Assembly: GCF_023101345.1 (NCBI RefSeq)
Contig: NZ_CP095848.1
Span: forward strand, 433,501 to 497,500
DNA: 64,000 bases
DNA from: Hymenobacter sublimis
GTDB lineage: Bacteria; Bacteroidota; Bacteroidia; Cytophagales; Hymenobacteraceae
Direction of reading: 5' to 3'
Every line of letters starts with the position of its first letter. Position 1 is the first letter of the stretch. Position numbers and translations under genes: made by a program. The notes under the pieces were generated by a model. The model was not told the origin of the DNA, did not search any database, and saw nothing but the letters and a program-made list of their open reading frames with translations. Of the stretch, positions 9,631-51,543 are shown in pieces.

Positions 9631-9727
9631 TCAGTTGGCGGTGGTTGGTTGCTGGTTGCCGGTGTAATGCGGCCACCTGAAACAGAACCGCCGCAACTGG
9701 TAACCGACAACCGACAACTGGCAACAG
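9631..9727. repeat. Inverted repeat ending at the pheT start codon
   Basis: The left arm is built from GGTTGGTTGCTGGTTGCC-like units. The right arm (AACTGGTAACCGACAACC and following) is its imperfect reverse complement and stops directly before ATG 9728. Arms are low complexity and imperfect, with about three quarters of positions pairing by eye. Confidence 0.6.
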
Positions 9728-12163
9728 ATGAAAATATCCCTCGACTGGCTCCGCACACTCATTCCTACCGACAAACCCGCCGAGGAACTTGGCCAGCTGC
9801 TGACGGGCTCGGGCCTGGAGGTAGAAGGCATTGAGGAGCTGGAAAGCATTCCGGGCGGCCTGCGCGGCGTGGTGCTAGGCACGGTGCTCACCTGCGAAAA
9901 GCACCCCGACGCCGACAAGCTCAGCCTAACCACCGTGGATGTGGGCGACGCTACCCCCCGTCAGATTGTGTGCGGCGCCGCCAACGTGCGCGCCGGCCTG
10001 AAGGTAGTCGTGGCCCTGGAAGGCGCCATGCTCTATCCCACCCAAGGCGAGCCGTTCAAGATTAAGAAGTCCAAAATTCGCGGGGCAGCTTCCGAGGGCA
10101 TGATTTGCGCCGAGGACGAAATTGGCCTGGGCACCTCGCACGCCGGCATCATGGAGCTGGACACCGACTTGCCCAATGGCACGCCTGCCGCCGATTACTT
10201 CGGCCTGGGCTCCGACTCCGTGTTCGAAATTGGCCTGACTCCGAACCGGGCCGATGCCGCCTCGCACTACGGGGTAGCCCGCGAGTTGCGCGCCCTGCTG
10301 CGCCAGCCCTGCCACCTACCCGACGTCAGCCACTTCCACGCCCCCGCCGAAGCAGCGCAAAATATCCAGGTAACCTTGGAGGACGCTACCGCTGCCCCGC
10401 GCTACGCTGGTTTGTTGCTGGAAAACGTGCAGGTAGGCCCCTCGCCGGAGTGGCTGCAGCGCCGCCTGCGCAGCATTGGCCTCTCGCCCATCAACAACGT
10501 GGTAGACGTCACCAACTTCGTGCTGCATGAGTTGGGCCAGCCCCTGCATGCCTTCGATGCCGACCAAATTACCGGCGGCCACATCCGGGTGAAGCGGGCC
10601 GAGGCTGGTGAGAAGTTCACCACATTGGATGGGGTAGAGCGCACCCTACGCGCCGAGGACCTGGTTATTGCCGATGCCAACGGCACGCCCATGGCCCTAG
10701 CGGGTGTGTTCGGGGGCAAAACCTCCGGCGTGTCGGAAGCTACTACCCGCGTGTTCCTGGAAAGCGCCTACTTCGCGCCGGCCGTGGTACGTAAAACCGG
10801 CCAGACTCACCAGCTCAAAACCGACGCCTCCTTCCGCTTCGAGCGGGGTACTGATCCGCACATGGTGCCGGTGGCTCTCAAGCGCGCTGCCCTGCTGCTT
10901 CAGGAGTTGGCCGGCGCTACGGTGGCCGCCCCGGTGGTAGATGAGTACCCCACGCACATCAGCCACACGTTGGTGCGCTTGCGTTTGCCGCGAGTGGAGA
11001 AGCTAGTGGGCCAGTTCATTGCGCCCGAGCGGATTCGCCAAATCCTGACCGACCTGGATATTCTGATTGCGGAGGAGCTAACCAACGAAGCCGGCCACGC
11101 CGAGTGGATTCTGTCGGTGCCCCCGCACAAGGTGGACGTGACCCGGGAGGCCGACGTCATCGAGGAAATTTTGCGCATCTACGGCTACAACCACGTGGCC
11201 CTGCGTCCCCATAACTCCGCTTCCTACCTCGCTAAATTCCCGAATCCTGATCCGGAGATTATTCGTCAGAATACGGCGCGCTTGCTGAGCGGGCAGGGCT
11301 TCTCGGAAATCATCACTAACTCCATTACCAACTCGCTTTACTTCGAGAAGGAAGGAGAAGCGGATGCCGCGCTGGTACGCCTGCTTAACTACAATAGCGC
11401 TGAGCTGAACGTGCTGCGGCCTACGCTGCTGCACAGCGGCCTAGAAGTAGTGCGCCACAACGTAAACCGTCGCCAGCGCGACCTGAAGCTCTACGAGTTC
11501 GGCAAAACTTACCGCCAGCAGGCTGATGGCCAGTACGAGGAAAAGAACAAGCTCGTCATATACCTAACTGGCAATACGGCCGCTGAAACCTGGCAGCAGA
11601 AGTCGGAAAAGGCTACTTACCACCAATTGGCCAGCGCAGTGCAGCAGGTGCTGGCGTTCCTGGGCTTCCCGCAGCCCACCTCGCAGCCGGTGCAACACCC
11701 CTACCTGGCCGGTGGCCTCACGCTGTTGGCTCAAAACCAGCCGGTAGCCCAGCTCGGGGCCGTGTCGGGCGCCGTGCTGAAGAAGCTCGACGTGTCGCAG
11801 CCGGTGTGGTACGCCGAGCTGGACTGGGACTGGCTGATGCGCAAGTACAAAAACAACCTGGTAGCCCGCGAGCTACCCAAGTTCCCGGAAGTACGCCGCG
11901 ACCTAAGCCTGGTAGTCGACAAAACCATCACCTTCGACCAGCTCCAGCAGATTGCCCGCCGCACCGAAAAGAAACTCCTTCAGCAGGTGAACGTGTTCGA
12001 CGTGTACGAAGGCGAAAACCTGGGCTCCGATAAAAAATCGTACTCCGTGAGCTTCCTCCTCCAGGACCCTACCCAAACCCTCACCGACCAAGCTATTGAC
12101 GGCGTTATGCAGCGCCTGATTCAGCAGTTTGAGCAGCACGCCGGGGCCCTGATTCGGAAGTAA
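9728..12163 (+). CDS. pheT: Phenylalanyl-tRNA synthetase beta subunit
   Basis: Beta chain of the alpha2-beta2 enzyme that charges tRNA-Phe; 811 residues, full length. The domain order is complete: N-terminal EMAP-type OB tRNA-binding domain (about 40-150, KHPDADKLSLTTVDVG and CGAANVRAG), B3/B4 editing region (LTPNRADAASHYGVARELRA, NNVVDVTNFVLHELGQPLHA), B5 domain, a catalytic-like core, and the C-terminal ferredoxin-fold anticodon-binding domain beginning at KFPEVRRDLSLVVD. pheS is not in the window, as is usual in Bacteroidota, where the two are unlinked. The downstream small gene, zapA and rny follow in the same direction. Confidence 0.97.
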   Translation: MKISLDWLRTLIPTDKPAEELGQLLTGSGLEVEGIEELESIPGGLRGVVLGTVLTCEKHPDADKLSLTTVDVGDATPRQIVCGAANVRAGLKVVVALEGAMLYPTQGEPFKIKKSKIRGAASEGMICAEDEIGLGTSHAGIMELDTDLPNGTPAADYFGLGSDSVFEIGLTPNRADAASHYGVARELRALLRQPCHLPDVSHFHAPAEAAQNIQVTLEDATAAPRYAGLLLENVQVGPSPEWLQRRLRSIGLSPINNVVDVTNFVLHELGQPLHAFDADQITGGHIRVKRAEAGEKFTTLDGVERTLRAEDLVIADANGTPMALAGVFGGKTSGVSEATTRVFLESAYFAPAVVRKTGQTHQLKTDASFRFERGTDPHMVPVALKRAALLLQELAGATVAAPVVDEYPTHISHTLVRLRLPRVEKLVGQFIAPERIRQILTDLDILIAEELTNEAGHAEWILSVPPHKVDVTREADVIEEILRIYGYNHVALRPHNSASYLAKFPNPDPEIIRQNTARLLSGQGFSEIITNSITNSLYFEKEGEADAALVRLLNYNSAELNVLRPTLLHSGLEVVRHNVNRRQRDLKLYEFGKTYRQQADGQYEEKNKLVIYLTGNTAAETWQQKSEKATYHQLASAVQQVLAFLGFPQPTSQPVQHPYLAGGLTLLAQNQPVAQLGAVSGAVLKKLDVSQPVWYAELDWDWLMRKYKNNLVARELPKFPEVRRDLSLVVDKTITFDQLQQIARRTEKKLLQQVNVFDVYEGENLGSDKKSYSVSFLLQDPTQTLTDQAIDGVMQRLIQQFEQHAGALIRK

Positions 12164-12165
12164 CT

Positions 12166-12266
12166 TGGTTTTTGGTTAGCGGTTTTTGCTAATTGGGTTG
12201 CTAATCAGAACTCCGAAATGACGTTCTGCTAAAAGCAGCCAATCATCACCAACCTAAAATCAAAAA
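12166..12266. repeat. Degenerate inverted repeat filling the pheT to 12267 gap
   Basis: The left arm begins right after the pheT stop (TTGGTTTTTGGTTAGC, AATTGGGTTGC, CAGAAC). The right arm (GTTCTGCTAAAAGCAGCCAA ... ATCAAAAA) is its imperfect complement and ends at the ATG of the next gene. Confidence 0.5.
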
Positions 12267-12566
12267 ATGGCCTCTACCCAGCAGCTTGCTCAACTAGACC
12301 GCATGGAGCGGCAGGTAACCACGTTAGTGGCTGCCTATCAGCAGTTGCGCGAGGAGCTGGCCGATGCCCACACCACCATCCAGCAGCTCCGGGCCGACGT
12401 GCGCGACCGGGAGCGGCAGCTGAAGGATTTCCAGAATCAGGAGAATATCACTAAACTTGTCAATACCATAGCTGGTGCAGAACCGGCCAATGTTAACGAG
12501 CTGAAACTTCGCCTCAACGAATACATCCGAGAAATAGATAAGTGCCTTGCCTATTTGAGGGAGTAA
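12267..12566 (+). CDS. Small coiled-coil protein, probable ZapB-like partner of ZapA
   Basis: 99 residues, no signal peptide. Residues about 5-60 form a heptad-rich coiled coil (MERQVTTLVAAYQQLREELA, IQQLRADVRDRERQLKDF), followed by a helical C-terminus ending REIDKCLAYLRE. It sits 32 bp upstream of zapA and is almost certainly co-transcribed with it. Size and coiled-coil nature recall ZapB-type division proteins, but sequence identity to ZapB is not evident by eye, so the functional link is inferred from position. Confidence 0.8.
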   Translation: MASTQQLAQLDRMERQVTTLVAAYQQLREELADAHTTIQQLRADVRDRERQLKDFQNQENITKLVNTIAGAEPANVNELKLRLNEYIREIDKCLAYLRE

Positions 12567-12598
12567 CCACCACCTAACCCACCGCCTACTGGCTACTG

Positions 12599-12889
12599 AT
12601 GTCCGAATTATCCATCAAAATCCGCGTTGCTGACCGGGATTACCCCATGCGGGTAAGCCCCCAGGATGAGGAACGCCTGCGCCTCGCGGGCCGGCTGCTA
12701 AACGAGCGGCTGAAGGAATTTCGTGACCGGTACGGCATTCAGGATAAGCAGGACTTGCTAGCCATGATTGCGTTATCAACAATGGCTGACCAACTCAAGG
12801 TCAGCAAGGAAAAGGACGGGACCGACGCGGCCCTGACCGAGCGCCTTGCGCGCCTGGATGAGCTGCTGTCGGGAGTGGTGCTGGTCTAG
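12599..12889 (+). CDS. zapA: Cell division protein ZapA
   Basis: 96 residues, a FtsZ-ring-associated protein that bundles FtsZ filaments. The N-terminal globular part (IKIRVADRDYPMRVSPQDEE, LRLAGRLLNERLKEFRDRYG) is followed by the conserved QDLLAMIALSTMADQLK helix and a C-terminal coiled coil. It lies between the small coiled-coil gene and rny in the usual Bacteroidota order. Confidence 0.92.
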   Translation: MSELSIKIRVADRDYPMRVSPQDEERLRLAGRLLNERLKEFRDRYGIQDKQDLLAMIALSTMADQLKVSKEKDGTDAALTERLARLDELLSGVVLV

Positions 12890-12892
12890 CCA

Positions 12893-13023
12893 GTTATGCG
12901 GTTAGCAGCAGCGCGAAGCGTAAGCCCGAGCAGGGCGGGGTAATCGGCCCCGCTACCTGCGCGGACATTGGTGTTTCTGCCGGAGCTATGGGTTTCTTCC
13001 TTCCTAAAACCCCTTCATAGCTC
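12893..13023 (+). other. Structured zapA-rny spacer (possible regulatory RNA or leader)
   Basis: A 131-nt GC-rich spacer with two strong hairpins. One at 12930-12960 pairs GCAGG-GCGGGG with CCCCGC-TA-CCTGC. One at 12983-13023 ends at the rny ATG. A CGCG pair flanks the first hairpin. In several bacteria the 6S RNA gene lies downstream of zapA; this spacer is shorter than a normal 6S RNA, and I cannot assign it to that family by eye. Confidence 0.4.
12983..13023 (+). promoter_or_regulatory. rny: Hairpin abutting the rny start codon
   Basis: GAGCTATG (12983-12990) pairs with CATAGCTC (13016-13023) and an inner GGGTTT pairs with AAACCC. The 3' strand ends at the base before ATG 13024, so folding would hide the ribosome-binding region. 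Confidence 0.55.
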
Positions 13024-14721
13024 ATGTCCGAATCTCTTTATATTGTCCTGGCAGCCGTGCTGGCCCTTGTGGTTGGCGTGGTACTGGGGCGCCTGCTGGC
13101 TGGCAAAGCCCGGCAGGACCACGAAGCCGACGCTAAGGCGCGCGCCCAGCAGTTGCTGGCCGAAGCCGAAGCCCAGGCCACCCGCACCCGCGACGAGCGG
13201 ATTCAGCAGTCCAAGGATAAATTTCGCACCCTTAAGCAGGAATTCGAGCAGGAAAGCCGCCGCCAGAAGCAGGCCCTAGAACAGGAATTGACCGAGCGCC
13301 GCGCCGCCGTAGTAGAGCAGGAGCAGAGCATCAAGCAACTAACCCTTACTACCCAAAAGCAGCTGGAGCAGATTCAGCGCAAGGAAAAAGAGCTGGAAGC
13401 AACCCGCGAGAAAATAGAAACGCAGGCCCTGCAGCAGCGTGAAAAGCTGGATGCCCAGGAGGAAAAGCGCCGCACGGTGCTGGAAAACCAACTGGCCAAG
13501 CTGGAACAGCGCGAGCGGGAAGTAGAAGAGGAGTTGGAGGAGCGCGGCCAGGAGCTGAGCACCAAGCTGCACCAGGTAACCACGCAGCTAGAGAATATTT
13601 CGGGTCTGACCGCCGCCGAAGCCCGCGAGCAACTGGTGGAGTCGCTGAAAAACGAAGCTCAGATCCAGGCTTCCAGCTACATCAAAGACGTAGTAGCCCA
13701 GGCCAAGCTCACGGCCACCAAAGACGCCAAAAAGGTAGTGCTGGAAACTATTCAGCGCACCGCCGCCGAGCACGCCATTGAGAACTGCGTGTCCATTTTC
13801 AACATCGAGTCGGACGACGTGAAGGGCAAGATTATTGGCCGCGAAGGCCGTAACATCCGGGCCCTGGAAGCAGCTACTGGTGTGGAAATCATTGTGGACG
13901 ACACGCCCGAAGCCATCATCATTTCCGGCTTCGACCCGGTGCGCCGCGAGGTAGCCCGCCTAAGCCTGCACCTGCTGGTGAAGGATGGCCGGATTCACCC
14001 GGCCCGCATCGAAGAAATTGTGGCTAAAACCCGCAAGAATATTGATGAGGAAATCGTCGAAATCGGCGAGAAGACCATCATCGACCTGGGCATTCACGGC
14101 TTGCACCCCGAGCTGATCAAGATGGTAGGCCGCATGCGTTTCCGCTCCTCTTACGGGCAGAACCTGCTGCAGCACTCCCGCGAGGTAGCCAACCTGTGCG
14201 CTACTATGGCCGCCGAGCTGGGCCTGAACGTGAAGCACGCCAAGCGCGCCGGCCTCTTGCACGACATCGGCAAGGTAAGCACCGAGGAACCCGAGCTGCC
14301 CCACGCCATCCTAGGCATGGAAATGGCCAAGAAGTACAAGGAGCATCCCGACGTAGTCAACGCCATCGGCGCCCACCACGACGAAATTGAGATGACAGCC
14401 ATGATTTCGCCCCTGGTGCAGGCCTGCGACGCCATTAGCGGCTCGCGCCCCGGTGCCCGCCGCGAGATGATGGAAAGCTACATCAAGCGTCTCAAGCAAC
14501 TGGAAGAAACGGCCAACGGCTTCAAAGGTGTTAACCAGTGCTTTGCTATTCAGGCCGGCCGCGAGCTGCGCGTGATGGTAGACGCCGAAAACGTAACCGA
14601 TGAGCGCGCCGCGGAGCTGAGCTACGAGATTTCCCAGAAAATTGAGAAGGAAATGCAGTACCCTGGTCAAATCAAAATCACGGTTATCCGGGAGATGCGC
14701 GCCGTAGCCTACGCCAAATAG
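13024..14721 (+). CDS. rny: Ribonuclease Y
   Basis: A membrane-anchored endoribonuclease that starts mRNA decay. The N-terminal transmembrane helix (about residues 5-27, [18 protein letters not shown]) is followed by a long Glu/Gln/Lys/Arg-rich coiled coil to about residue 210. Then come a KH domain ([20 protein letters not shown], about 260-320) and an HD domain with [11 protein letters not shown], the metal-binding LLHDIGK and [10 protein letters not shown]. At 565 residues it is a little longer than the usual 510-520, owing to the coiled coil and the start used. It ends the pheT/zapA block with a terminator at 14736. Confidence 0.95.
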
Positions 14722-14735
14722 CCAACTAGGCAAAT

Positions 14736-14775
14736 AAAAAAGCCCGCTGCAACCGTTGTTGCGGCGGGCTTTTTT
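14736..14775. terminator. Intrinsic terminator after rny
   Basis: Stem GCCCGC-T-GCAA / TTGC-G-GCGGGC flanked by AAAAAA and TTTTTT. Confidence 0.92.
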
Positions 14776-14862
14776 ATGCGTTATGCAACGCTGGCCGTGT
14801 TGTGTGGCTCCTGCAGCAAACCCTCTCATTCAACTGACCTATCGAAAAGACTAATACAAACG

Positions 14863-15618
14863 GTGGTAGCTTATTTATCTATTCTTAGAAAAGCGGGCAG
14901 CGCCGCAATTGGAAGCCTGCTAGTGAGTTGCTCGGTGTACGCTCCCTTGCAGCCCAGTGCTCCGCTGGTACACAAAAAAGGTGAGGCCGAAGTAGCTGCC
15001 AGCGCCTACCTCACGGGGAGGCTGGAGGGCTCCGCTGCCTACTCACCGGCCAAACACCTCATCGTGCGCGCAGCCGGCGGCCTACGCAGCGACGGCAGTG
15101 ACTCCACTTACTTCCGCATTCGGCAGCTGGAGGCTGGAATCGGCACTTACCACTATATCGATGAGCAATGGTTGCTGGGGGGAATGATGGGGTATGGCAG
15201 TGGGCAGAGCAGCCGACGTTACCGCGACGGCTTTGAGTCTATCTTCCAGGATTCCGTACTGAGCAACGAGTATGCGGCTCGTTTCCGCAAGCTCTTCGCG
15301 GAAGCTTACGTGGCGAATGATGCGGGCTGGACTACTTTTGGGGTAGCCTGTCGCTTTTCGCAGGTGCGGTTCGCCTCTCTTACAAACCGTGGGGTTCCTG
15401 TACCACTGCGGCGCATGACACGCCTTGAACCCATGCTGTTTATTCGTTTCGGTGGGCAAGGGCGTATTCCGTGGCTGCAAGGGCAGGTAGCCACCAGTTT
15501 GTCAATGCCAGCAGACGGCCGGATTTTTTCGGCCAATGAGGCTATCAGAGACACCAAGGAAGGACGGCTTTTTACTTCCTTCGGGCTGGTTATCTACCCG
15601 CACTTGTTTAAGGATTAA
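14863..15618 (+). CDS. Hypothetical lipoprotein, probable outer-membrane barrel type
   Basis: I place the start at GTG 14863, which gives a short basic n-region, a hydrophobic stretch and a lipobox-like LLVSC. An upstream in-frame ATG at 14776 lies against the rny terminator and is unlikely. The mature protein (about 230 residues) has alternating hydrophobic and aromatic strands (HLIVRAAGGLRS, AGIGTYHYIDEQWLLGGMMG, AYVANDAGWTTFGVACRFSQ) as in small beta-barrels. No family is recognised. It resembles the 17164-17898 lipoprotein in layout: lipobox, a polyPro or Pro-rich start, PLLTQKGE/PLVHKKGE and then strands. The two may be distant paralogues. Confidence 0.7.
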   Translation: MVAYLSILRKAGSAAIGSLLVSCSVYAPLQPSAPLVHKKGEAEVAASAYLTGRLEGSAAYSPAKHLIVRAAGGLRSDGSDSTYFRIRQLEAGIGTYHYIDEQWLLGGMMGYGSGQSSRRYRDGFESIFQDSVLSNEYAARFRKLFAEAYVANDAGWTTFGVACRFSQVRFASLTNRGVPVPLRRMTRLEPMLFIRFGGQGRIPWLQGQVATSLSMPADGRIFSANEAIRDTKEGRLFTSFGLVIYPHLFKD

Positions 15619-15627
15619 GACATCTGG

Positions 15628-21002: not shown

Positions 21003-21078
21003 TGTCATTTCGAGCCGCGAGGAATCTGGGTTGAACTCTGGAAGCTAATCCAGATTTCTCGCGCGGCTCGAAATGACA
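21003..21078. repeat. Dispersed palindromic element (conserved-arm class)
   Basis: The left arm starts TGTCATTTCGAGCCGCG and continues AGGAATCTGG. The right arm is its near-perfect reverse complement ending GGCTCGAAATGACA. It lies between convergent stop codons (20892 and 21119). Related copies are at 25923, 26611, 48041 and 51449. Confidence 0.75.
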
Positions 21079-25922: not shown

Positions 25923-26013
25923 TAAACCTGTCATTCCGAGCGAAGCGAGGAATCTGGCTTATCCGTACAAGGGTAACCTCAGATTCCTCGCTTCGCTCGG
26001 AATGACAGGTTTA
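25923..26013. repeat. Dispersed palindromic element, perfect 34-bp arms
   Basis: The left arm (25923-25956) opens TAAACCTGTCATTCCGAGCG and continues AAGCGAGGAATCTG. The right arm (25980-26013) is its exact reverse complement, with 23 nt between. It fills the gap between ispH and the DUF502 gene. Confidence 0.85.
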
Positions 26014-26605: not shown

Positions 26606-26610
26606 GAGAT

Positions 26611-26749
26611 GAGTGAATTGATATAGTACGTTATCCTGAGGCGTAGCCGAAGACCCTTATTACGCCTGAACGGCAGTCAATCAACGACTCGTGCTGGCGT
26701 GACGAGGTCCTTCGTTGCGCTCAGGATGACGTACTATGTCAATTCACTC
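26611..26749. repeat. Dispersed palindromic element, 139 nt
   Basis: The left arm (GAGTGAATTGATATAGTACG then TTATCCTGAGGC) starts 5 bp after the DUF502 stop. The right arm (GCTCAGGATGACGTACTATG then TCAATTCACTC) ends 15 bp before the next ATG. Arms pair over about 44 nt with a few mismatches. The core ATCCTGAGCG resembles, but is not identical to, the TCATTCCGAGCG arm of other copies. Confidence 0.7.
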
Positions 26750-26764
26750 ACTCACCGATTCACT

Positions 26765-28672: not shown

Positions 28673-29806
28673 ATGAATATGCGCCACTTCCTTCCCTTGC
28701 TGGCCCTAGCCCCGCTGGCTCTGACCTCTTCGGCACCCAAGCCCGCACCGGTTGCCGCGGCTCCGGATGTCAATCTGAGTAAAATTAAGCTGCCGGCTGG
28801 CTTTACCATCAGCTACTTTGCCAAAGGTGTGAAAAGCGCCCGGGAGCTGGCCGTAGGCCCCGACGGTACGGTATACGTGGGCACCAAAGACGACAAGGTA
28901 TTTGCCCTGCCCGACCGCAACAAGGATGGTCGGGCCGATGAAGTGGTTACCGTGGCCACCGGCTTGAACGCACCTAACGGGGTAGCCGTGCGCAACGGTG
29001 CCCTGTACGTGGGCGAAATCAACCGAATTCTGCGCTACGACAACATTGCGGCCCGCCTAAAGCAAAAGCCCAAGCCCGTGGTGGTATATGGCAAGCTCCC
29101 AACCAAGGAGTGGCATGGCTACCGCTACATTGCCTTTGGCCCCGATGGCAAGCTCTACGTGCCGGTAGGAGCGCCCTGCAACACTTGCCTGCCCGAAGAA
29201 CCGATTTACGCCACTATCAACCGCATGAACCCCGACGGCACGGGGCTGGAAACGTACGCCTACGGGGTGCGCAACACGGTCGGCTTCGACTGGAGCCCTC
29301 AGGACAAAGCCCTGTGGTTCACGGATAACGGCCGCGACCAGCTCGGCGACAATCTGCCCGCTGATGAGCTGAACCGCTCGGCCGGCCCCGGTCAGCATTT
29401 CGGCTTCCCATACTTTTTTGCCGGCGACGTGCCCGACCCCGAGTTTGGCAAAGGCAAATCGGCTAGTACCTACATCAAACCCGCCCGCAAGCTGGGGGCG
29501 CACGTGGCGGCGTTGGGTATGAAGTTTTACACCGGCAAGCAGTTTCCGGCCCAGTACCGCAACCAGATTTTCATTCCGGAGCACGGCTCCTGGAACCGGA
29601 GCAACAAAATCGGCTACCGCATCAGCCTCGTGCGCCTCGATGCCACCGGCAAGCAAGCCCGCAGCTACGAAACTTTTGCCGAGGGCTGGCTGCAAGGCCA
29701 AACGCCCTGGGGCCGCCCCGTCTGCCTGCTGGTGCTACCCGACGGTTCCTTGCTGGTTTCCGACGACCAGAATGATGCTGTGTACCGCATCAGCTACAAG
29801 GGTTAA
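28673..29806 (+). CDS. Secreted PQQ-type sugar (sorbosone/glucose) dehydrogenase
   Basis: 377 residues with a signal peptide, periplasmic. A six-bladed propeller of the soluble glucose/sorbosone dehydrogenase family: AVGPDGTVYVGTKDDKVFAL, YRYIAFGPDGKLYVPVGAPC, EPIYATINRMNPDGTGLE, YGVRNTVGFDWSPQ, WFTDNGRDQLGDNLPADELN and FIPEHGSWNRS are typical blade motifs, with the catalytic His in the YRYIAFG region expected from the family. No PQQ synthesis genes are visible in the window, so the cofactor would come from elsewhere. Its stop codon lies inside the left arm of a perfect inverted repeat. Confidence 0.88.
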   Translation: MNMRHFLPLLALAPLALTSSAPKPAPVAAAPDVNLSKIKLPAGFTISYFAKGVKSARELAVGPDGTVYVGTKDDKVFALPDRNKDGRADEVVTVATGLNAPNGVAVRNGALYVGEINRILRYDNIAARLKQKPKPVVVYGKLPTKEWHGYRYIAFGPDGKLYVPVGAPCNTCLPEEPIYATINRMNPDGTGLETYAYGVRNTVGFDWSPQDKALWFTDNGRDQLGDNLPADELNRSAGPGQHFGFPYFFAGDVPDPEFGKGKSASTYIKPARKLGAHVAALGMKFYTGKQFPAQYRNQIFIPEHGSWNRSNKIGYRISLVRLDATGKQARSYETFAEGWLQGQTPWGRPVCLLVLPDGSLLVSDDQNDAVYRISYKG

Positions 29807-29930
29807 GTGGTGAAATTGTGAACTTGTGAAATGGTGAGTTGGTGTTCGAAATGGCTTTATAGCGCATATTGCGCTTGCAGGGCAAAGAATGGCTAACTCA
29901 CCATTTCACAAGTTCACAATTTCACCACTT
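29805..29930. repeat. Perfect 36-bp inverted repeat spanning stop to start
   Basis: The left arm 29805-29840 (opens AAGTGGTGAAATTGTGAACT, continues TGTGAAATGGTGAGTT) overlaps the TAA of the dehydrogenase. The right arm 29895-29930 is its exact reverse complement and ends at the base before ATG 29931. Loop 54 nt. Confidence 0.9.
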
Positions 29931-30392
29931 ATGAAGCAGCGCGGACCGAAGCGGACAGTGGGGCGGCGGGAACTAGTAGACTTTCCGCATTTCCAGGTGT
30001 GGGGAGTGGAAGCCAAGGTGGATACCGGGGCCTACACCGGCGCCATTCACTGCTCTAACATTCGCGTGGAAACCGGCACCGATGGCCGGCCGCGCCTGCA
30101 CGTGCAGCTCCTGGACGCGCCGCACCCCGATTTTAATGGCCTGCCCCTGCAGTTTGATGAGTTCACGCTGCGCGACATTCGCAGCTCCAACGGGGAGGTG
30201 CAGGAGCGGTACGTTATCCGGGCGGCAGTGCGGCTGTTTGGGGAAGATTTCGAAACAGAATTTTCGCTTTCTGACCGCTCCGACATGAAATATCCCGTAC
30301 TAATCGGCCGGGTACTGTTGCGCGAGGCCCGGTTGGTGGTAGATGTGGCCCGGCGCAACCTGTCGTATAAAAATAAGCTGGCCGCCCGCTAA
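29931..30392 (+). CDS. RimB-like retropepsin-type protease (ATP-dependent zinc protease family)
   Basis: 153 residues from ATG 29931. The hallmark is the aspartyl-protease-like [16 protein letters not shown] near residue 28, followed by [10 protein letters not shown] and [19 protein letters not shown]. The family is annotated as ATP-dependent zinc protease. In Pseudomonas its member RimB works with RimK, which adds Glu residues to ribosomal protein S6. Here rimK lies 80 bp downstream in the same direction, so a matching role is a reasonable inference. Its start codon is at the end of a perfect inverted repeat. Confidence 0.85.
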
Positions 30393-36636: not shown

Positions 36637-36912
36637 GTCAATGAAGAATGAGAAATGAGGAGTGAAGAATAACGCTGGCCCAAGGCCTAGGGGCAGTATC
36701 CTGTCCTCTTGTAGGGGAGTTGTCCAAGCGGGTTGCCTCACTCCCGGCCCCTTCCTCCAATAAAGGAAAAGAGGAGTCAGATGATAAAAGCAACGTTATT
36801 TCGCTTGGCCTGGTAGGAAAGGCAACAGGTTCTACGCGCGGTAAAGGTCCGAAGAAGCTACTGGCCAACAATTTTTAATTCTTCGTTCCTCGTTCTTCAT
36901 TCCCAATTCCTC
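36637..36912. repeat. Low-complexity inverted repeat filling a stop-to-start gap
   Basis: Next to the cvfB start: TGAAGAATGAGAAATGAGGA and GTGAAGAATA. Next to the BamA-like stop: AATTCTTCGTTCCTCGTTCT and TCATTCCCAATTCC, the imperfect reverse complement with a 7-nt indel. The about 190 bp between is unremarkable; an open frame at 36638-36871 on the minus strand is not convincing. Confidence 0.55.
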
Positions 36913-40300: not shown

Positions 40301-40380
40301 TAGCGGTTAGGTAGTAGCTGCTGACTGTCAAGATGATGAACCTTTCTTCGAACTATTAGCAGCTACTACCTGATAGCTCA
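40301..40380. repeat. Inverted repeat after the radical SAM gene
   Basis: AGGTAGTAGCTGCT (40309-40322) pairs exactly with AGCAGCTACTACCT near 40358-40371, with weaker outer pairing (TAGCGGTT / GATAGCT). It starts 2 bp after the stop and ends 13 bp before ATG 40393. Confidence 0.65.
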
Positions 40381-43544: not shown

Positions 43545-43568
43545 ATTTATCCTAAGATACTGAGCCGG

Positions 43569-44942: not shown

Positions 44943-45468
44943 ACGGGTAACGCGCGGCGGCTTAACTAAGGCCGCTTGGGTGGCCTCAGCTAACAGCTTT
45001 CCGGAGCGGAAGGTTGTATTACTTTTAAGAGGGACTGGTAGCTACCCCCAAACAGCGAAGTCAACTTAACCTGCCGCGTACTGCTTTTTGTATAGGTCCG
45101 GCGCAAAGCCTTCAGCTGGCAGAACAGCTTCTAAAACAGAGAAGCATTATTGAAACCCGCACGGAGACAGTTGCCGATTATGACCATTCAAGCTCAATCT
45201 CCAGCGCAAAGCGGCAGACTTCATCACGCGGAAATAAGTCTTATGGCAAGGCTGTAATTAGGGGCAAAAGTTCTTTGCGGCGCTCGAAGCTAGGTGCTGT
45301 AAGTGGCAAGCAAAAGGCCTGGGCAAGTGCAGCGGGGCGTACTGTTTTGTTATTATTACACAAACAGCAACAAGCTCTGGCCTACTGGTCAGAGCTTGTT
45401 GCTGTTTTTAAGGAGGAGTTAAAGCAGGCTTTATCTAGCAATGCTAAAGAAGCCTTATCAGGCTAGGG
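44943..45468. other. Large intergenic region with very strong hairpin, no clear gene
   Basis: 526 bp. Contains a weak TTG-start frame (45275-45466) that runs through a perfect 18-bp hairpin and looks non-coding, and a 25-codon frame starting at ATG 45180 with no other support. The hairpin at 45362-45409 looks like the end of a plus-strand transcript, so a non-coding RNA in about 45000-45400 is possible. I could not match any known RNA. Confidence 0.45.
45362..45409 (+). terminator. Perfect 18-bp hairpin with T-tail
   Basis: AAACAGCAACAAGCTCTG (45362-45379) pairs exactly with CAGAGCTTGTTGCTGTTT (45390-45407), loop 10 nt, followed by TTA. In plus orientation the last stem bases and tail form TTTTTA. 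It may end an unannotated plus transcript, or serve the minus gene whose stop is at 45469. Confidence 0.75.
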
Positions 45469-45945
45469 CTAGTTGCTGACTTTCACGGGGAGGCCTTCGA
45501 GCTGCACGTAGCTGAGCTTCCAGGCGTTTTTCTTGTTTTTCTTCCAGAGCAGAATGAAGTTGCCTTCGCCTTCGCCGCTGGGCTGGCCAGGAGCTTCGGG
45601 TAGCACCTCCGTGGAGAAAGTGCCGGCCTCGTAAGCCGTATTAGCGTCGGTGCCGGCGCTAGTACCGTAGAGTTTCAGGTCGGCAATCGTGCCCATGGTA
45701 GCGCGCACCCACTTATCCGATACTTCTGATTTGCCATTAAAGCGGGTAGCGCCTTGGGCGTACTGCACGTCGTCGGCCAGCAGCGTATCGAGAGCGGCCG
45801 TGTTTTTGGCGTTCCAGGCGCCGATGAATTGCTGGTTGAGGCTTTTTACATCAACAGCAGCAGCGGCGTCATCAGGCTTAGGCGCCGAGCAGGAGGAGGC
45901 CAGCAGTGCGGCACTCCCAAGCAGAAAACCAACAAGAGGTTTCAT
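45469..45945 (-). CDS. NTF2-like (DUF4440-type) lipoprotein
   Basis: 158 residues from ATG 45945 with a lipoprotein signal (LASSC lipobox). About residues 35-150 look like the NTF2/SnoaL cone fold: SLNQQFIGAWNAKNTAALDT, LLADDVQYAQGATRFNGKSE, KNAWKLSYVQLEG near the end. Such proteins may bind small ligands or act as enzymes; nothing here is specific. The Gly-zipper gene upstream on the minus strand ends at its own terminator. Confidence 0.8.
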   Translation of the reverse strand: MKPLVGFLLGSAALLASSCSAPKPDDAAAAVDVKSLNQQFIGAWNAKNTAALDTLLADDVQYAQGATRFNGKSEVSDKWVRATMGTIADLKLYGTSAGTDANTAYEAGTFSTEVLPEAPGQPSGEGEGNFILLWKKNKKNAWKLSYVQLEGLPVKVSN

Positions 45946-45991
45946 GGGAACAGAGGTTAGGTGAGGCAGAACGGGGAGAAAAGAAGGAAAC

Positions 45992-46021
45992 AAAACGCCC
46001 AGGCCCGGGGGCCTGGGCGTT
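45992..46021 (-). terminator. Intrinsic terminator for the 46044 gene
   Basis: AACGCCCAGGCC / GGCCTGGGCGTT stem with AAAA on the plus strand at its left edge. Confidence 0.85.
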
Positions 46022-46043
46022 GAAGCTACAGGAAAAAGCGGGA

Positions 46044-46574
46044 CTACCAGCTCTTACGACGTACTTCCGAGGTCGGATAAGCGGCGTCGCGGGCACCGTA
46101 GTTGTTGTTAGGCAGGTAGGCCGAGCTCATAGCCAGCGAGGTAGGAGCACCAGCGGCCGGAGCGCCGAAGCTGTTCATCATGGCCGGAGCGGCAGCCGGA
46201 GCAGCGGCGGCAGCAGCCAGCGCGGCGTTGTTGTTGGCGCGAGCTTTAGCTTCGCCGCGGGCAATGCCGGCGCGGTAAGCGGCAGCGCGGCGCTGCTCAG
46301 CACGGTTGGCGGCGGCTACGCGGGCTGCCTCGGCGCGGCGTTTGTTGTCGGCGGTCCGACCGATGCTGTAGCCCAGACCGGCACCAGCGGCACCACCCAC
46401 GGCACCACCCACTACGCGGTTCCGCTTGTTGATAAGCGCACCGGCTGCGGCACCACCCAGACCACCAATAATGGCACCTTTGGCGCTGGAGCTAACCTTG
46501 CGGTCCTGGGCAAAGCTGGAGGCGATGGTAGTGAAGAACATCACGAGGGCGAGAAGCAAACTTACCTTTTTCAT
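46044..46574 (-). CDS. Glycine-zipper outer-membrane-type protein
   Basis: 176 residues with a Sec signal peptide (cleavage near SSFAQ). Two Gly-zipper segments (GAIIGGLGGAAAGALI and GGAVGGAAGAGLGYSIG) as in YMGG/OmpA-associated Gly-zipper proteins, then an Arg/Ala-rich helix and a low-complexity Ala-rich tail. It probably inserts in or spans a membrane. Not assignable to a process. Confidence 0.8.
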   Translation of the reverse strand: MKKVSLLLALVMFFTTIASSFAQDRKVSSSAKGAIIGGLGGAAAGALINKRNRVVGGAVGGAAGAGLGYSIGRTADNKRRAEAARVAAANRAEQRRAAAYRAGIARGEAKARANNNAALAAAAAAPAAAPAMMNSFGAPAAGAPTSLAMSSAYLPNNNYGARDAAYPTSEVRRKSW

Positions 46575-46774
46575 GGCGAGAGAAGTTTAAGGTTCAGTGG
46601 GCTGGTTAAGCAGTAGCCCTGAACTCAGTTTTACAAGCACCATGCCAATACGAACCGAATCAACCCCAGGTTTAGCCCAACAGTAGGCGAAGACGGCGCT
46701 TTTTTCTACCCTGAGTCATTTGCTGGAAATGTGCTTTATTTCTTCGTTATCAAGGTTTTTGCGTACAGCCAGGT

Positions 46775-47080
46775 ATGGAACAAACGTTATTATTCCGGGT
46801 TGATAAAAATTTTTCACTACCTGGGCTGGGCGTACTGCTACTACCTGAAAAGCAGGTGCCCGAACTCCAGAAACTCGCCTTGCACACGTCTCTGCGGCTT
46901 CTGCTGCACTACTCCGCCGGCCACCGGGAGCCCGCCGTGGCGACGGTAGAGGAAATAGACCGCGCCGAGGAGTCCGCCGTGCGCGCCCTGCTACTCACCC
47001 AGGAAGGTGCCGCCCCCGTGCCAGTGGGCACCGAAGTATGGTGGGGCGGGGAGGAGGTAGGCTGGGAGGAGCTGCTTTAG
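46775..47080 (+). CDS. Hypothetical protein (101 aa)
   Basis: A soluble small protein with EQTLLFRVDKNFSLPGLGVL, LHTSLRLLLHYSAGHREPAV and an acidic Trp/Gly-rich end (EVWWGGEEVGWEELL). The mixed beta-strand pattern and codon use look coding. No family known to me. The gene is divergent from the Gly-zipper gene (200-bp gap). Its stop codon overlaps the stop of the esterase gene by 4 bp. Confidence 0.7.
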   Translation: MEQTLLFRVDKNFSLPGLGVLLLPEKQVPELQKLALHTSLRLLLHYSAGHREPAVATVEEIDRAEESAVRALLLTQEGAAPVPVGTEVWWGGEEVGWEELL

Positions 47081-47991
47081 CGCAGCCAGCCGCCGGCATC
47101 CAGCCAATTCTGGAGGCGGTCGGTCCAGTTGTCTTTGGTGGTTTTGTTGAGCATGCCAAAGCCGTGGCCGCCTTGGGGGTAGAGGTGCATTTCAGCGGGT
47201 ACTTGGTGCTGCAGGCAGGCCTCGTAGAAAGCTAGGCTGTTCTGCACTTTCACCGTCTGGTCATCGGCAGCGTGCACCAGGAAGGTAGGCGGCGTTTGGG
47301 CGGTTATCTGCAATTCGTTGGAATATCGCCTGATTTGGTCTGTAGCGGGCTTCTCGCCGATAAGGCTAGTGCGGGAGCCAGCGTGCATGAGCTCGTCGGA
47401 GAAGCTGATAACCGGGTACAGCAGCATCAGAAAATCGGGCCGCACGGAGGTTTTCTCTTTAGTATCGCCGACGGGGGTAGCGAAGTGCGTGCCGGCCGTA
47501 GAAGCCAGGTGTCCGCCCGCCGAAAAGCCCATCAGCCCAACCCGGCTGGGGTTTACGCCGAACTCGGCGGCGCGCTGCCGCACCAGCCGAATAGCCTGCT
47601 GGGCATCGAGCAGGGGTACTACAGATTTATCGGTCTGGCTCTGGGCATTCGGTAGGCGGTATTTTAGCACAAATGCCGTGATGCCCATTTCATTGAGCCG
47701 CCGGGCCACATCGTAGCCCTCGTGGTCCATAGCCAAACGCGCGTATCCTCCACCCGGACAAATAATAACGGCCGTGCCGTTGGCTTTGGCAGGCCTATAT
47801 ACCGTCAGCGTCGGCGTCACCACGTTAGAGATGCGGATGCTACCGTTGGCTTGCTTATCCACTACTTCCTGGATGCTACTGGCCTTGGAATTGGGAACAG
47901 CGCCGGAGTAAAGCGGAATGACCGGCTGGTTTTGGGCCTGAGCGAACGTCACAATAAGAAGGCAGAGTAGGAAGAAGAGAAGTTTGCGCAT
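47077..47991 (-). CDS. Secreted esterase/lipase (alpha/beta hydrolase, BD-FAE type)
   Basis: 304 residues from ATG 47991 with a Sec signal peptide (cleavage near FAQAQ). VIICPGGGYARLAMDHEGYD is the oxyanion block of this group, GLMGFSAGGHLAST the Ser elbow, and HAADDQTV carries the acid. QGGHGFG holds the catalytic His. These enzymes often remove acetyl groups from plant glycans, although that is only a family tendency. It lies downstream of the RND efflux operon, beyond a palindromic element. Confidence 0.88.
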   Translation of the reverse strand: MRKLLFFLLCLLIVTFAQAQNQPVIPLYSGAVPNSKASSIQEVVDKQANGSIRISNVVTPTLTVYRPAKANGTAVIICPGGGYARLAMDHEGYDVARRLNEMGITAFVLKYRLPNAQSQTDKSVVPLLDAQQAIRLVRQRAAEFGVNPSRVGLMGFSAGGHLASTAGTHFATPVGDTKEKTSVRPDFLMLLYPVISFSDELMHAGSRTSLIGEKPATDQIRRYSNELQITAQTPPTFLVHAADDQTVKVQNSLAFYEACLQHQVPAEMHLYPQGGHGFGMLNKTTKDNWTDRLQNWLDAGGWLR

Positions 47992-48040
47992 AGTGGGTAG
48001 GGGAGAAGCCACTAGGATGGAATAGAGAGAAAAGCAGACC

Positions 48041-48133
48041 GTCATGCTGAGTGCTGCGGGGCATCTCGCGTGCTGACGTTAGGTAGTGACTCCAACCTCA
48101 GCATGCGAGATGCTTCGCGGCGCTCTGCATGAC
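48041..48133. repeat. Dispersed palindromic element between RND pump and esterase
   Basis: GTCATGCTGAGTGCTGCGGG then GCATCTCGCGTGCTGA pairs imperfectly with TCAGCATGCGAGATGC and GCTCTGCATGAC. The core GCATGCTGA / CGTGCTGACG also appears in the 51449 element. Confidence 0.7.
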
Positions 48134-48173
48134 GTTCCTGTTCTTACCTGTTCACGCAACCTGATTTAGCTAC

Positions 48174-51100
48174 CTACGCTGGGCTGGGCGCGGGGTGCTG
48201 ACCCTGGCCGGGTGCATCTGGGTGGCCGCCGTGCTCCTCGTCGGGTTGGTAGTTGGCTTCCAATTCGGCCAGCTTCTCTTTGCCGTAGGCGAAGCGGGTG
48301 ATGAGCACATACAGCACCGGCACGATGAAGATAGCCAGCAAGGTAGCCGAGAGCATACCGCCGAGTACCGTCCAGCCGATGGTCTGGCGGCTCTGGGCGC
48401 CGGCGCCGGAGGCAAACACTAGCGGCAGCACACCCAGGATAAAGGCCAGCGAGGTCATGACGATGGGGCGCAGGCGTAGGCGCACGGCTTCCAGGGTGGC
48501 ATCCACCAGCGGCATGCCTTTATCAACCCGTTCCTTGGCAAATTCGATAATGAGAATGGCGTTTTTGGCTGACAAACCAATTAGGGTAATTAAGCCGATC
48601 TGGGCGTAGACGTTGTTGGTGAGCTTGGGCAGGAAGGTCAGGGCCAGGATGGCACCGAAAGCGCCCACCGGCACGGCCAGCAGCACCGAGAACGGCACCG
48701 ACCAGCTTTCGTACAGCGCCGCCAGAAACAGAAACACGAAAGCCAGGGACAAGGCAAAAATGTACACCGTCTGCCCGCCGGCCAGCAATTCCTCCCGGGT
48801 CAGACCTGAAAACTCGAAACCGTAGCCTTGGGGTAGGGATTGGGCCGCCGTTTCCTGCAGGGCCTTAATAGCGTCGCCGGAGGAGTAGCCGGGGGCCGCA
48901 TTGCCGTTGATTTCGGCGGAGCGGAATAGGTTGTAGTGGGAAATCAGTGGGGCCGACTCGGTGCGCTGGTAGCTGGTGAGCGTGCTCAGGGGCACCATGC
49001 CGCCCTGACTGTTGCGCACGTAGTACTGCCCCAGGTTCGAGATGTCGCCGCGGTACATGGAGTCGGCCTGGGTTACTACCCTAAAGTTGCGGCCATACAC
49101 CGTAAAGTCGTTCACGTAGGCCGAGCCCAAGTAGGTGCGCAGGGCGGTGCCAATATCGGAGATAGAAACGCCGAGTTTCTTGGCTTTTTCACGGTCGATG
49201 GTTAGCTGATAGCCGGGCGTATTGGCCGTGAAGAAGGAGAAGGGCGCAGCAATTTCGGGGCGCTTGCGCAGGGCGCCGAGGAAGTTTTGCAACTGGGCGT
49301 CGAAGTTCTTGATGTCGCCGCCGGCTTCGCGCTCCTGCAGGATAAAGCTGAAGCCGCCGGTGTTGCCAAGGCCCGGAATAGCGGGTGGCGAAATCACCAC
49401 GATGTTAGCTTCCTTGAGGCGGCTCAGGCGCTTTTGCACGGTAGCAATCAGGCCCTGCAACTGCACTTCCTTGTCTTTGCGCTCCTCCCAGGGCTCCAGC
49501 TGGCAAAACACCGTGCCGCTGCTCGATTTGGAGGAGAAGTTTACGGCGTTTAGACCACCCAGACCCGCGTAGTGCCGGATACCCTTGATCTGGCCCAGCT
49601 CCTTCATAATCTCGCGCAGGGTGCTGACTGTACGCTCCGTGGAGGACGCCTCGGGCAAGTTGAAGGTCACGATAATCCGGCCCTCGTCTTCGGTAGGAAT
49701 GAAGCTGGAGGGCTTTTTGGCAAACAGCAACCCCGTACCGGCCACAATGCACACCAGAATCACCACCACGAAGCGGGAGTGCTTGATGCCGCGCTGCACG
49801 CCGTTGCCGTACTTGCTCGTCACCTTGTCAAACCAGGTGTTGAACTTGAAAAACAGCTTATCGAGACCCTTGGAGTTCTCGTCGCGCTTGTGGGGCTTGA
49901 GCAGTAGCACGCATAAGGCCGGCGTCAGCGAAAGCGCCACGAAGGCCGAAATCAGCACCGAAATAGCAATGGTAATGGCGAACTGCTGATACAAGCGCCC
50001 CGTGATGCCCGGAATGAAACCCACCGGCACGAACACGGCCGCCAGAATCAGGGCAATGGCAATAACCGGGGCCGAAATTTCGCGCATGGCCGCCAGGGTA
50101 GCGTCCAGGGGGTTCATGTTCCGCTCGTTCATGTTGTGCTCCACGGCTTCCACCACCACAATGGCGTCATCGACCACAATACCGATGGCCAGCACGAAAC
50201 CGAACATGGTAAGCGTATTAATCGTGAAGCCCAGCGGGATAAACAGGATGAAGGTACCGATGATGGACACCGGAATTGCCAGCACCGGAATGAGCGTAGA
50301 GCGCCAGCTTTGCAGGAACAAGTACACTACCACAATCACCAGCAGCAGGGCCTCTACCAGCGTGTGCAGCACCTCTTCAATGGACACTTTTACCACCGAG
50401 GCCGCCTCGAACGGCACCACGTAGTCAAGGTCGGCGGGGAACTGCTTTTTGAGCTGTTCCATGGTGGCATTTACGTTCTCGTAGGTTTCGAGGGCGTTGG
50501 CGCCGGGGGCCTGGTACACGAGCAGGTAGGCGGCGCGCTTGCCATCGACAAAGGAGTTGTTGGCGTAGTTGAACTTGCCCAGCTCCAGCCGCGCCACGTC
50601 CTTCAGATACACCACCGAGCCATCTTCGGGCCGGGTTTTCACAATGACATTGCCGAACTCCTCGGTGTTGGTGAGGCGGCCTTTTACGAAGACGATGTAC
50701 TCGAAGGTCTGGCCAGTTTGGGCCGGGGGGGCGCCAATAGAGCCGGCTGCAATCTGGGCGTTTTGCTCCTGAATGGCGGCCGTTACTTCCTGGGCCGTGA
50801 CGCCCAGTTGGGACAGTTTATCGGGGTTGAGCCACACGCGCATGGAGAAGTCATCGGCGCGGCTCACGATGTCGCCTACTCCCTTGGTACGCAGCAAGGC
50901 GTCCTTGATGAACACGTTGGCGTAGTTGTCGAGGAAGGTGGTGTTGTGCGAGCCTTTGGGCGCGTACAGGGCCACTAGCATCAGGATGCTGGGATTCCGC
51001 TTGCGCACTACCAGGCCCAGGCGTTGCACCTCTTGCGGCAGGGTAGGCTGGGCAATGCCCACGCGGTTTTGCACATCCAGGGCGGCAATGTTGATGTCGG

Positions 51101-51395
51101 TGCCTACCTCGAAGTTGACCGTCATGCTCATCTGCCCGTTGCTGGTGCTGTTGCTTTGCAGGTAGGTCATGCCGGGCGTGCCGTTTACCTGCACTTCCAC
51201 GGGCGTGGCTACGGTCTGCTCCACGGTTTGGGCGTCGGCGCCGGTGTAGGTCCCGCTCACCGATACAGTAGGCGGCGTGATTTCCGGATACTGCCCCACG
51301 GGCAAGTTCAGGATGGCCAGCACCCCCACCATCACAATCACCAGGGAGGTGACAATGGCCGTGACGGGGCGCCGGATAAAGGTTTCTGCAATCAT
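48174..51395 (-). CDS. RND multidrug efflux pump (HAE1/AcrB type)
   Basis: Inner-membrane proton-driven pump of 1073 residues, full length. MIAETFIRRPVTAIVTSLVI is TM1, the porter domains follow, and the proton-relay Asp pair is in TM4 (GIVVDDAIVVVEAVEHNM). The second half repeats the topology with large loops (about residues 560-870), and the final helices end in a His/Pro/Gly-rich cytoplasmic tail. It forms one operon with the adaptor and tolC-type genes upstream. No regulator gene is near, so control may be distant or constitutive. Confidence 0.95.
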   Translation of the reverse strand: MIAETFIRRPVTAIVTSLVIVMVGVLAILNLPVGQYPEITPPTVSVSGTYTGADAQTVEQTVATPVEVQVNGTPGMTYLQSNSTSNGQMSMTVNFEVGTDINIAALDVQNRVGIAQPTLPQEVQRLGLVVRKRNPSILMLVALYAPKGSHNTTFLDNYANVFIKDALLRTKGVGDIVSRADDFSMRVWLNPDKLSQLGVTAQEVTAAIQEQNAQIAAGSIGAPPAQTGQTFEYIVFVKGRLTNTEEFGNVIVKTRPEDGSVVYLKDVARLELGKFNYANNSFVDGKRAAYLLVYQAPGANALETYENVNATMEQLKKQFPADLDYVVPFEAASVVKVSIEEVLHTLVEALLLVIVVVYLFLQSWRSTLIPVLAIPVSIIGTFILFIPLGFTINTLTMFGFVLAIGIVVDDAIVVVEAVEHNMNERNMNPLDATLAAMREISAPVIAIALILAAVFVPVGFIPGITGRLYQQFAITIAISVLISAFVALSLTPALCVLLLKPHKRDENSKGLDKLFFKFNTWFDKVTSKYGNGVQRGIKHSRFVVVILVCIVAGTGLLFAKKPSSFIPTEDEGRIIVTFNLPEASSTERTVSTLREIMKELGQIKGIRHYAGLGGLNAVNFSSKSSSGTVFCQLEPWEERKDKEVQLQGLIATVQKRLSRLKEANIVVISPPAIPGLGNTGGFSFILQEREAGGDIKNFDAQLQNFLGALRKRPEIAAPFSFFTANTPGYQLTIDREKAKKLGVSISDIGTALRTYLGSAYVNDFTVYGRNFRVVTQADSMYRGDISNLGQYYVRNSQGGMVPLSTLTSYQRTESAPLISHYNLFRSAEINGNAAPGYSSGDAIKALQETAAQSLPQGYGFEFSGLTREELLAGGQTVYIFALSLAFVFLFLAALYESWSVPFSVLLAVPVGAFGAILALTFLPKLTNNVYAQIGLITLIGLSAKNAILIIEFAKERVDKGMPLVDATLEAVRLRLRPIVMTSLAFILGVLPLVFASGAGAQSRQTIGWTVLGGMLSATLLAIFIVPVLYVLITRFAYGKEKLAELEANYQPDEEHGGHPDAPGQGQHPAPSPA

Positions 51396-51448
51396 CGGGT
51401 TATAGCTATTAGCTGCTAGCCAGTGGCCGTTAGCTACTGTTCATGACG

Positions 51449-51543
51449 TGTCATTCCGGACCCCGCGAGGAATCTAGCATGCTGATTATGGCGTACTATT
51501 TTGCCGTTAGCACGCGAGCTGTCTAGACAGGCTCGACATGACG
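51449..51543. repeat. Degenerate or composite palindromic element
   Basis: The left half is of the conserved-arm class (TGTCATTCCGG ... GCGAGGAATCT). The right half (GTTAGCACGCGAG, GTCTAGACAGGCTCGACATG) resembles the 48041 element and contains the perfect 12-mer CTGTCTAGACAG. The arms no longer match each other fully, as if two variants had recombined. Confidence 0.5.

Follow-up and report, generated by a model that had tools for sequence, protein, structure and literature searches.

Intergenic palindromes in Hymenobacter sublimis form a mixed population of REP doublets, low-complexity palindromes, and extended terminators

The intergenic inverted repeats in a 64,000-nucleotide stretch of the Hymenobacter sublimis chromosome (referred to here as the window; positions 433501-497500 of the 4.78-Mb genome, G000:C1) represent a mixed population and not a single element. 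A preliminary description had cited ten of these repeats as one phenomenon, in which palindromes extend from stop to start codon in the gaps between genes. The observation is real, but its unity is not. Each of the ten intervals folds as a hairpin; about half of the loci (five) are doublets of a repetitive extragenic palindrome (REP), that is, two inverted copies of a small hairpin, and the other five have low-complexity arms, among which facing arrays of the octamer GTGARNTD are the clearest family. Terminators, which occur in convergent gaps and can have extended arms, are a third kind of palindrome outside the cited ten. One mobile element behind all ten was rejected because the arms are of unrelated kinds. 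The explanation that we favor, with a probability of about 0.55, is that the doublets move as matched units and that the arms of octamer palindromes and terminators are partly kept by template switching, with no need for a shared role.

Census and placement in gene gaps

Six of the ten repeats (those starting at 21003, 25923, 26610, 29804, 40301, and 48041) were also recovered by two mechanical scans, and the remaining four (9631, 12166, 36637, and 51449) are gapped or weak repeats that are visible by folding only, with those at 12166 and 51449 folding weakly. A seed-and-extend scan of 464 kb, consisting of the window and 400 kb sampled from the same chromosome, detected 102 repeats with a score of ≥14, of which 97 are intergenic, compared with 4 in one Markov shuffle. 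Those with a loop of ≥12 numbered 55 (50 intergenic), and all of the shorter-loop repeats (47/47) are intergenic. At a score of ≥18 and a loop of ≥12, the density was 5 to 8 per 100 kb in five Hymenobacter sets and 0 in shuffles, whereas 200 kb of Escherichia coli K-12 contained 1 such palindrome. Among other Bacteroidetes, Larkinella (4 in 67 kb) and Mucilaginibacter (4 in 112 kb) are comparable in these small samples, and others had none. Periodic arms were found at P ≤ 0.01 in 21 of 164 long palindromes (1.6 expected); since most lack them, short-period arms were rejected as a general rule. The window had no Rfam matches at the gathering score, and the palindromes are thus without a known structured RNA match; a tRNA search of the window also found none.

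Gene starts in the placement analysis came from our own simple gene caller, and gap placement was scored for “long” palindromes located in gaps (score of ≥18 and loop of ≥12; n = 101). Edges facing a stop codon (n = 120) lay within 3 nt of it in 28 cases versus 18.6 in random placements (0/2000 randomizations reached 28), within 6 nt in 33 cases versus 25.5 (reached by 19/2000), and within 30 nt in 64 cases versus 53.5 (reached by 7/2000); there was no clear excess of these edges at ≤10 nt (35 versus 32.5) or ≤15 nt (42 versus 39.3). Edges facing a start codon (n = 82) were depleted, with 12 at ≤15 nt versus 22.2 at random. The proposed stop-to-start arrangement is therefore retained only as a small excess near stops, and it is not general, since the start side is depleted. 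Palindromes often fill most of a co-directional gap (>60% of it in 31 of the 72 co-directional cases), and the stop-to-start cases are thus likely to arise without special aiming.

Co-directional gaps, to which the preliminary description had assigned all but one of its repeats, are not the richest in them. Relative to the number of gaps of ≥100 nt, there were 24 palindromes for 98 convergent, 72 for 530 co-directional, and 5 for 205 divergent gaps, where the palindrome counts cover all gaps of at least 20 nt. Compared with co-directional gaps, convergent gaps are richer (P = 0.009) and divergent gaps are nearly empty (P = 1.5e-6). As a whole, then, long palindromes avoid divergent gaps; they also vary in presence between species. 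A perfect 74-bp zero-loop palindrome was observed at L197:11824-11897, in a co-directional gap and hundreds of bases from both called genes.

REP doublets

The five REP-doublet loci resemble REP doublets forming hairpins (REPINs) and are of the CGTC type. The doublet at 21003..21078 (GTCATTTCGAG type) lies in a convergent gap, and the relative G116 retains only a remnant of it. At 25923..26013, the doublet (GTCATTCCGAGCGAAGCGAGGAATCT) pairs at 34/34 positions, with an outer TAAACCT that pairs with the right flank, and at 26610..26750 a doublet of the GTCATCCTGAG type is nested in outer low-complexity arms that are GTGA octamers in G116. The doublet at 48041..48133 is of the CGTCATGCTGAG...GCATCTCGC type, with another REP subtype at the same place in G116, and a decayed doublet at 51449..51543 was recognized by folding.

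Allowing ≤3 mismatches, a 26-letter REP consensus matched the whole genome 57 times in the forward and 47 times in the reverse orientation, and the same pattern read backward had 0 and 0 matches. About 35 facing pairs were counted by hand among 100 places listed. A single REP arm folds alone, as GTC-ATTCC-GA-GC-NNN-GC-GA-GGAAT-CT, with a stem of 5 pairs, a G.A step, and 2 pairs, followed by a 3-nt loop and ending in a CT tail. The motif GCGNAGC forms an unusually stable DNA mini-hairpin. A general pattern with the tandem G.A step fixed gave 58 matches in 2.33 Mb and 12 in the reversed sequence. Among 41 distinct, nonindependent arms (partners and orthologues are included), three column pairs clearly co-vary (paired in 35/41 arms versus 21.6 expected, 29 versus 20.5, and 33 versus 27.1), and the remaining columns co-vary little (28 versus 27.1, 34 versus 31.5, 24 versus 21.3, and 39 versus 33.7). 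When the G.A step was left free, GA/GA was retained in 24 of at least 35 arms. A GTAG-tagged REP type is common in G005 and G020, the close species pair used for comparison below (median identity of 94% over gap plus flanks).

These doublets are of known kinds. As in the account of REPINs (PMC3116915), they consist of two inverted REPs with a spacer that fold back, each REP being itself a hairpin, and they are extragenic, with singlets as remnants; that account also describes two-sided compensatory changes in the hairpin as common. They are unlike those REPINs in REP sequence and in that no Y1 (REP-associated tyrosine transposase [RAYT]-type) transposase was found in this genome, where a PF01797 search gave 0 matches and was positive in 5 of 14 control genomes. 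CGTC-type REPs without a dedicated transposase have been reported in Bacteroidetes (PMC3733652), and the Hymenobacter REPs share with the CGTC- and GTAG-tagged REPs described there a CGTC/TGTC or GTAG tag, an A-T stem start, and a mostly facing-dimer arrangement. The 8- to 9-bp stem, 4- to 5-nt loop, and CCA-like tail given there for CGTC-tagged REPs were not found here; instead, the stem is broken by the tandem G.A step, with the shorter loop and the CT tail.

Long palindromes in the close pair, which are mostly REP doublets, retained both arms in 33/50 (G005) and 28/42 (G020) cases, and both arms were absent or replaced at the aligned place in 5/50 and 5/42, where some flanks are poorly aligned. 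Over 809 arm pairs, 84 changes were one-sided, 12 mirrored, and 5 double but unpaired, and the reverse direction (699 pairs) gave 63, 8, and 4, respectively. These counts exclude unalignable palindromes (12 long and 3 short from G005 and 11 and 2 from G020), as do the window/G116 counts (1 and 3 long). The arms had diverged by 0.073 and 0.062, compared with 0.092 and 0.084 for the remaining gap sequence. Because the changes are mostly one-sided, most long palindromes behave as elements that were born matched and then decayed. Single cases (A83263/B82850) suggest occasional arm correction in REP doublets; general arm conversion, first inferred from single examples, received no support from the change counts. 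At one site in two close species, we found two unrelated palindromes (L150:18518-18592, a GTAG REP doublet, and L161:2858-3011, of the GGATTTAACGG type), just upstream of a promoter-like TAACTTTG box.

Octamer palindromes, leader palindromes, and terminators

The clearest octamer palindrome (29804..29931, plus strand; GTGARNTD units, 37/37 paired) extends from a stop codon as far as the A of the following ATG, in the 29805-29930 gap between a sorbosone-dehydrogenase-like gene and a zinc-protease-like gene (Pfam assignments). In G116, the closest relative at this locus, the palindrome is also perfect (32/32), with five pairs changed on both sides and one changed on one side. Across nine species, chosen for alignable loops from 31 loci, 32 cells were changed on both sides (shuffle mean of 13.3, reached in 0/500 shuffles; 2 to 10 in slid structures), the covariation score was 0.256 versus 0.110 when shuffled (0/500), and 90.7% of cells were paired versus 82.4% (0/500). 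Pairs with any double change numbered 11 versus 8.2, a value reached by 32/500 shuffles. The columns 24/115 and 26/113 have four and three pair types, respectively, with no one-sided state, and the six most variable inner columns have 25 double changes (16 of the transversion type, by hand count), 2 one-sided changes, and 4 unpaired cells. The loops align across the nine species and the arms differ, which indicates one old palindrome. At the same place, other species have a longer array (L259; 65/74), REP doublets (L212 and L268), or other low-complexity arms (L251, L256, and L260), and some have no repeat with a score of ≥12. The very long L259 palindrome, in the gap that precedes the gene at 1501, has six and seven GTGA units in its arms.

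A search for two and a half GTGARNTD units, counting overlapping exact matches, gave 75 in the forward and 84 in the reverse orientation in this genome and 200 and 196 in G009 (backward control, 0 to 3). At least one match was present in 31 of the 41 Hymenobacter genomes searched, and there were none in G005 or G020. For 11 array pairs, a chosen subset of loci in which 5 are orthologues of one gap and for which pairing was not required, similarity at variable positions was 0.833 within loci, above both the 0.582 between loci and the highest value in 500 shuffles (0.788). The earlier statement that arms differ between loci and pair within a locus thus holds for GTGA arrays picked without a pairing requirement. 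The TAACTGA heptamer arrays found near starts in five Bacteroidetes (PMC4679880) and the GGGAATC arrays, for which inverted pairs were noted in Xanthomonas (PMC4692102), are likewise intergenic and built of short units. Unlike the direct TAACTGA arrays just upstream of starts, the present arrays consist of an octamer and occur in facing pairs that form long palindromes with matched arms.

The low-complexity palindrome at 9631..9727 (plus strand), which has heptamer-like CAACTGG units, does not occupy a plain stop-to-start gap, since a promoter-like −7 box (TACCTTTG; 9616..9623, plus strand) stands between the stop codon and the palindrome, which fills the leader from the box to the pheT ATG. 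Of the readable same-genus loci, 20/23 have TACCTTTG and 22/23 have TAnnTTTG, which we take to be the Bacteroidetes −7 promoter motif, within 160 nt of the pheT start; the box is further upstream in L036, and 2 of the 25 loci (L041 and L056) were unreadable at the start codon. The conservation of the TAnnTTTG box upstream in 22/23 readable relatives marks this palindrome as a leader case. By reading, long hairpins with different arms occupy the leader in the window, L037, L038, L042, L045, and L062, and a stretch like the right arm without a matching left arm is present in L033, L035, L040, L044, and G116.

Downstream of pheT, a weak low-complexity palindrome (12166..12266, plus strand) keeps a remnant of a REP doublet (GAAATGACG). 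In Hymenobacter sediminis, the nearest of the named relatives compared (pheT 95% identical), the doublet lies inside the loop of an older low-complexity palindrome (L062:12493-12587); the window retains only the last bases of the doublet. In G116, some 450 extra bases that are absent from the window separate pheT from the next gene (L270:600-1070), and an open frame there looks S1-domain-like by eye from its translation. The palindrome at 36637..36912 (minus strand), with AATGAAG/AATGAG heptamer-like arms and a long loop, was identified by folding, and its place in G116 has no repeat with a score of ≥12. The G116 homologue of the low-complexity palindrome at 40301..40380 (GGTTAGGTAGTAGCTGCT; plus strand) is paired at 22/24 positions with changes in both arms.

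Palindromes with little or no loop are frequent in convergent gaps. In the window, a perfect zero-loop palindrome (26/26; 59919..59970) has a terminator core in common with G116 and arms that extend past it; the homologue is 15/15 with a 4-nt loop in G116 and 30/30 in G112. Consecutive complementarity beyond the core is 11 nt in the window, 2 in G116, 1 in G018, and 19 in G112. Another convergent gap has zero-loop palindromes of 30/30 in G005 (L142:8907-8966) and 39/39 in G020 (L152:10233-10310). Among 30 aligned pairs, 19 are unchanged, 8 have changes on both sides but still pair, 2 are changed on one side, and 1 is a double change that is unpaired; this alignment shows diverged homologues, and the view that these are unrelated sequences was therefore rejected. 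Like bidirectional intrinsic terminators, the palindromes at 59919 and in other convergent gaps have a G+C stem with A and T tracts, and they differ in that the arms pair ≥10 nt past the T-tract in a minority here (1/25, 4/37, 2/36, and 1/20 in Hymenobacter sets). Such extension was rejected as a Hymenobacter trait, as it also occurs in 6/52 non-Hymenobacter loci. The 59919 region (57069-60778) contains a gene for a subtilase-type peptidase that converges on one for a chagasin-type (I42) peptidase inhibitor (Pfam).

Origin and maintenance of matched arms

According to the favored explanation, REP doublets would arise with matching arms, the pair moving as a single unit, and would then undergo ordinary mutational decay. 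Octamer palindromes and terminators may be partly kept matched, lengthened, and occasionally loop-inverted by DNA template switching, in which a polymerase would use an arm, or the sequence flanking it, as the template for its partner. The avoidance of divergent gaps would reflect harm to promoters, and a shared regulatory role would not be needed.

Evidence for templated changes comes from a scan of 428 orthologous gaps of G005 and G020, in both directions, in which clusters of changes were compared with the nearby reverse complement of the other species and with plain reverse and plain complement controls. Clusters matching the reverse complement (≥3 differences, ≥12 nt) numbered 22 versus 4 and 5 in the controls. 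An intermediate setting gave 13 versus 3 and 3 (13 matches in 9 loci), and a strict setting (≥4 differences, ≥14 nt) gave 7 versus 0 and 0 (7 matches in six loci). Because these clusters exceed the controls, template switching does occur. Four of the six strict loci are clear by eye: at 99374 the left half (AACAGAGCGC) is identical in both species and the matching right half is present in G005 only, at 367530 the left arm is identical in both and the perfect right arm is present in G020 only, and the loops at 436766 and 509837 are inverted between intact arms. At 25923, the left outer TAAACCT matches the right flank in reverse complement; G116 has largely the same right flank and a different left one. 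Spacer inversion, and possibly arm homogenization, are features shared with the template-switch mutation that creates and maintains hairpins (PMC8794818 and PMC8604942), and the present cases differ from those in being bacterial intergenic palindromes and in accounting for a minority of the changes in long ones.

The preliminary description had proposed either the making of palindromes in place or fast co-varying elements. Both occur, as indicated by the covariation at 29805 and by templated changes above two controls, but the set is heterogeneous, half of it being REP doublets, and changes in long palindromes of the close pair are mainly one-sided. The making or correcting of palindromes in place is thus real, yet a minority process, and the signal of arm homogenization is strong at 29805 and weak over all long palindromes.

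Several results weigh against the favored explanation. Two of the six strict loci are unconvincing (138041 is AT-rich, and 676955 is a badly aligned gap with REPs), and the same scan between the window and G116 (43 gaps) gave no match. In the close pair, long palindromes had only modestly more double changes than the slid control (17 versus 11.6; 12 versus 5.4 in the reverse direction). One old arm with one new arm was rare (1/50 and 2/42 long and 0/39 and 1/39 short palindromes), with 4, 4, 4, and 0 additional cases in which this mixture is confined to the outer half. The direction of copying at 59919, at first read as leftward in the window and rightward in G112, is not settled by flank identities. 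Selection for pairing could also yield covariation, and no mobilizing enzyme was identified in a search confined to the Y1 domain.

A possible but unlikely alternative is that all of the palindromes are mobile elements, REPIN-like or resembling miniature inverted-repeat transposable elements, that arrive with prematched arms, so that species differing at the same place would have received independent insertions at a favored site, for example an older palindrome. REP doublets are indeed nested in older palindromes (L062, L212, and 26610), the L150/L161 site has two unrelated palindromes, and octamer arrays number in the hundreds in some genomes and are absent from 10/41. However, the aligned loops and differing arms at 29805 indicate one old palindrome and not repeated insertion; moreover, the genome has no Y1 domain (other transposases were not searched for), and no target duplication was resolved at presence/absence sites of close species.

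It is less likely than not that the two arms of octamer arrays are copied from one another in DNA, without an element-encoded enzyme, in a genus-wide process of palindrome birth and homogenization, whereby the arm sequence would drift almost as fast as the neighboring DNA and pairing would stay near perfect. Loss of a palindrome-cutting or single-strand exonuclease is a cause on which our searches were not informative: an SbcC homologue is present below the family cutoff (above it in 1/14 control genomes), and exonuclease I (PF08411) was not found in this genome and, among the 14 controls, is present only in E. coli.

It is improbable that all of the covariation reflects selection on RNA hairpins (for mRNA stability, termination, or translation) with compensatory mutation and no template switching. 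Convergent gaps are the richest in palindromes, and the short-loop, terminator-like hairpins of the close pair co-vary (21 mirrored, 1 double unpaired, and 41 one-sided; slid control, 8.0) and lean toward G.U over A.C mismatches (26 versus 14; P = 0.08), as RNA selection would have it. Selection on the sense RNA should, however, tolerate G.U more than A.C among arm mismatches in general, and co-directional long palindromes had 36 G.U versus 42 A.C on the sense strand at a score of ≥18 and 75 versus 67 at a score of ≥12 (P = 0.56), which speaks weakly against RNA-level selection on them. The double changes at 29805 are often of the transversion type with few one-sided states, and neither loop inversions nor reverse-complement clusters above controls are predicted by such selection. 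Neither the common effect on translation, read-through, or decay that was suggested earlier nor a leader or terminator function shared by all received support from placement, where the start side is depleted, or from the mismatch counts, and the kinds differ. Chance or an assembly artifact is scarcely credible: although some of the cited repeats are weak (12166 and 51449), the census exceeds its shuffle (102 versus 4), and homologous palindromes recur in separately assembled species.

REP doublets and terminators are of known kinds, and what is newer in these findings concerns the octamer palindromes together with the templated changes; no account of these Hymenobacter repeats was found among the literature matches listed, from a search whose coverage lacks most subscription journals. 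A long palindrome with perfect pairing should be unstable, and the question of how the stems of hairpins originate and keep their pairing is still open. The intergenic palindromes are a natural record of palindrome origin and pairing, in some of which related species have changed both arms together. With many octamer palindromes and loop-free terminators that differ in both arms between close species, templated arm copying may be measurable from strain genomes, with no need for a reporter.

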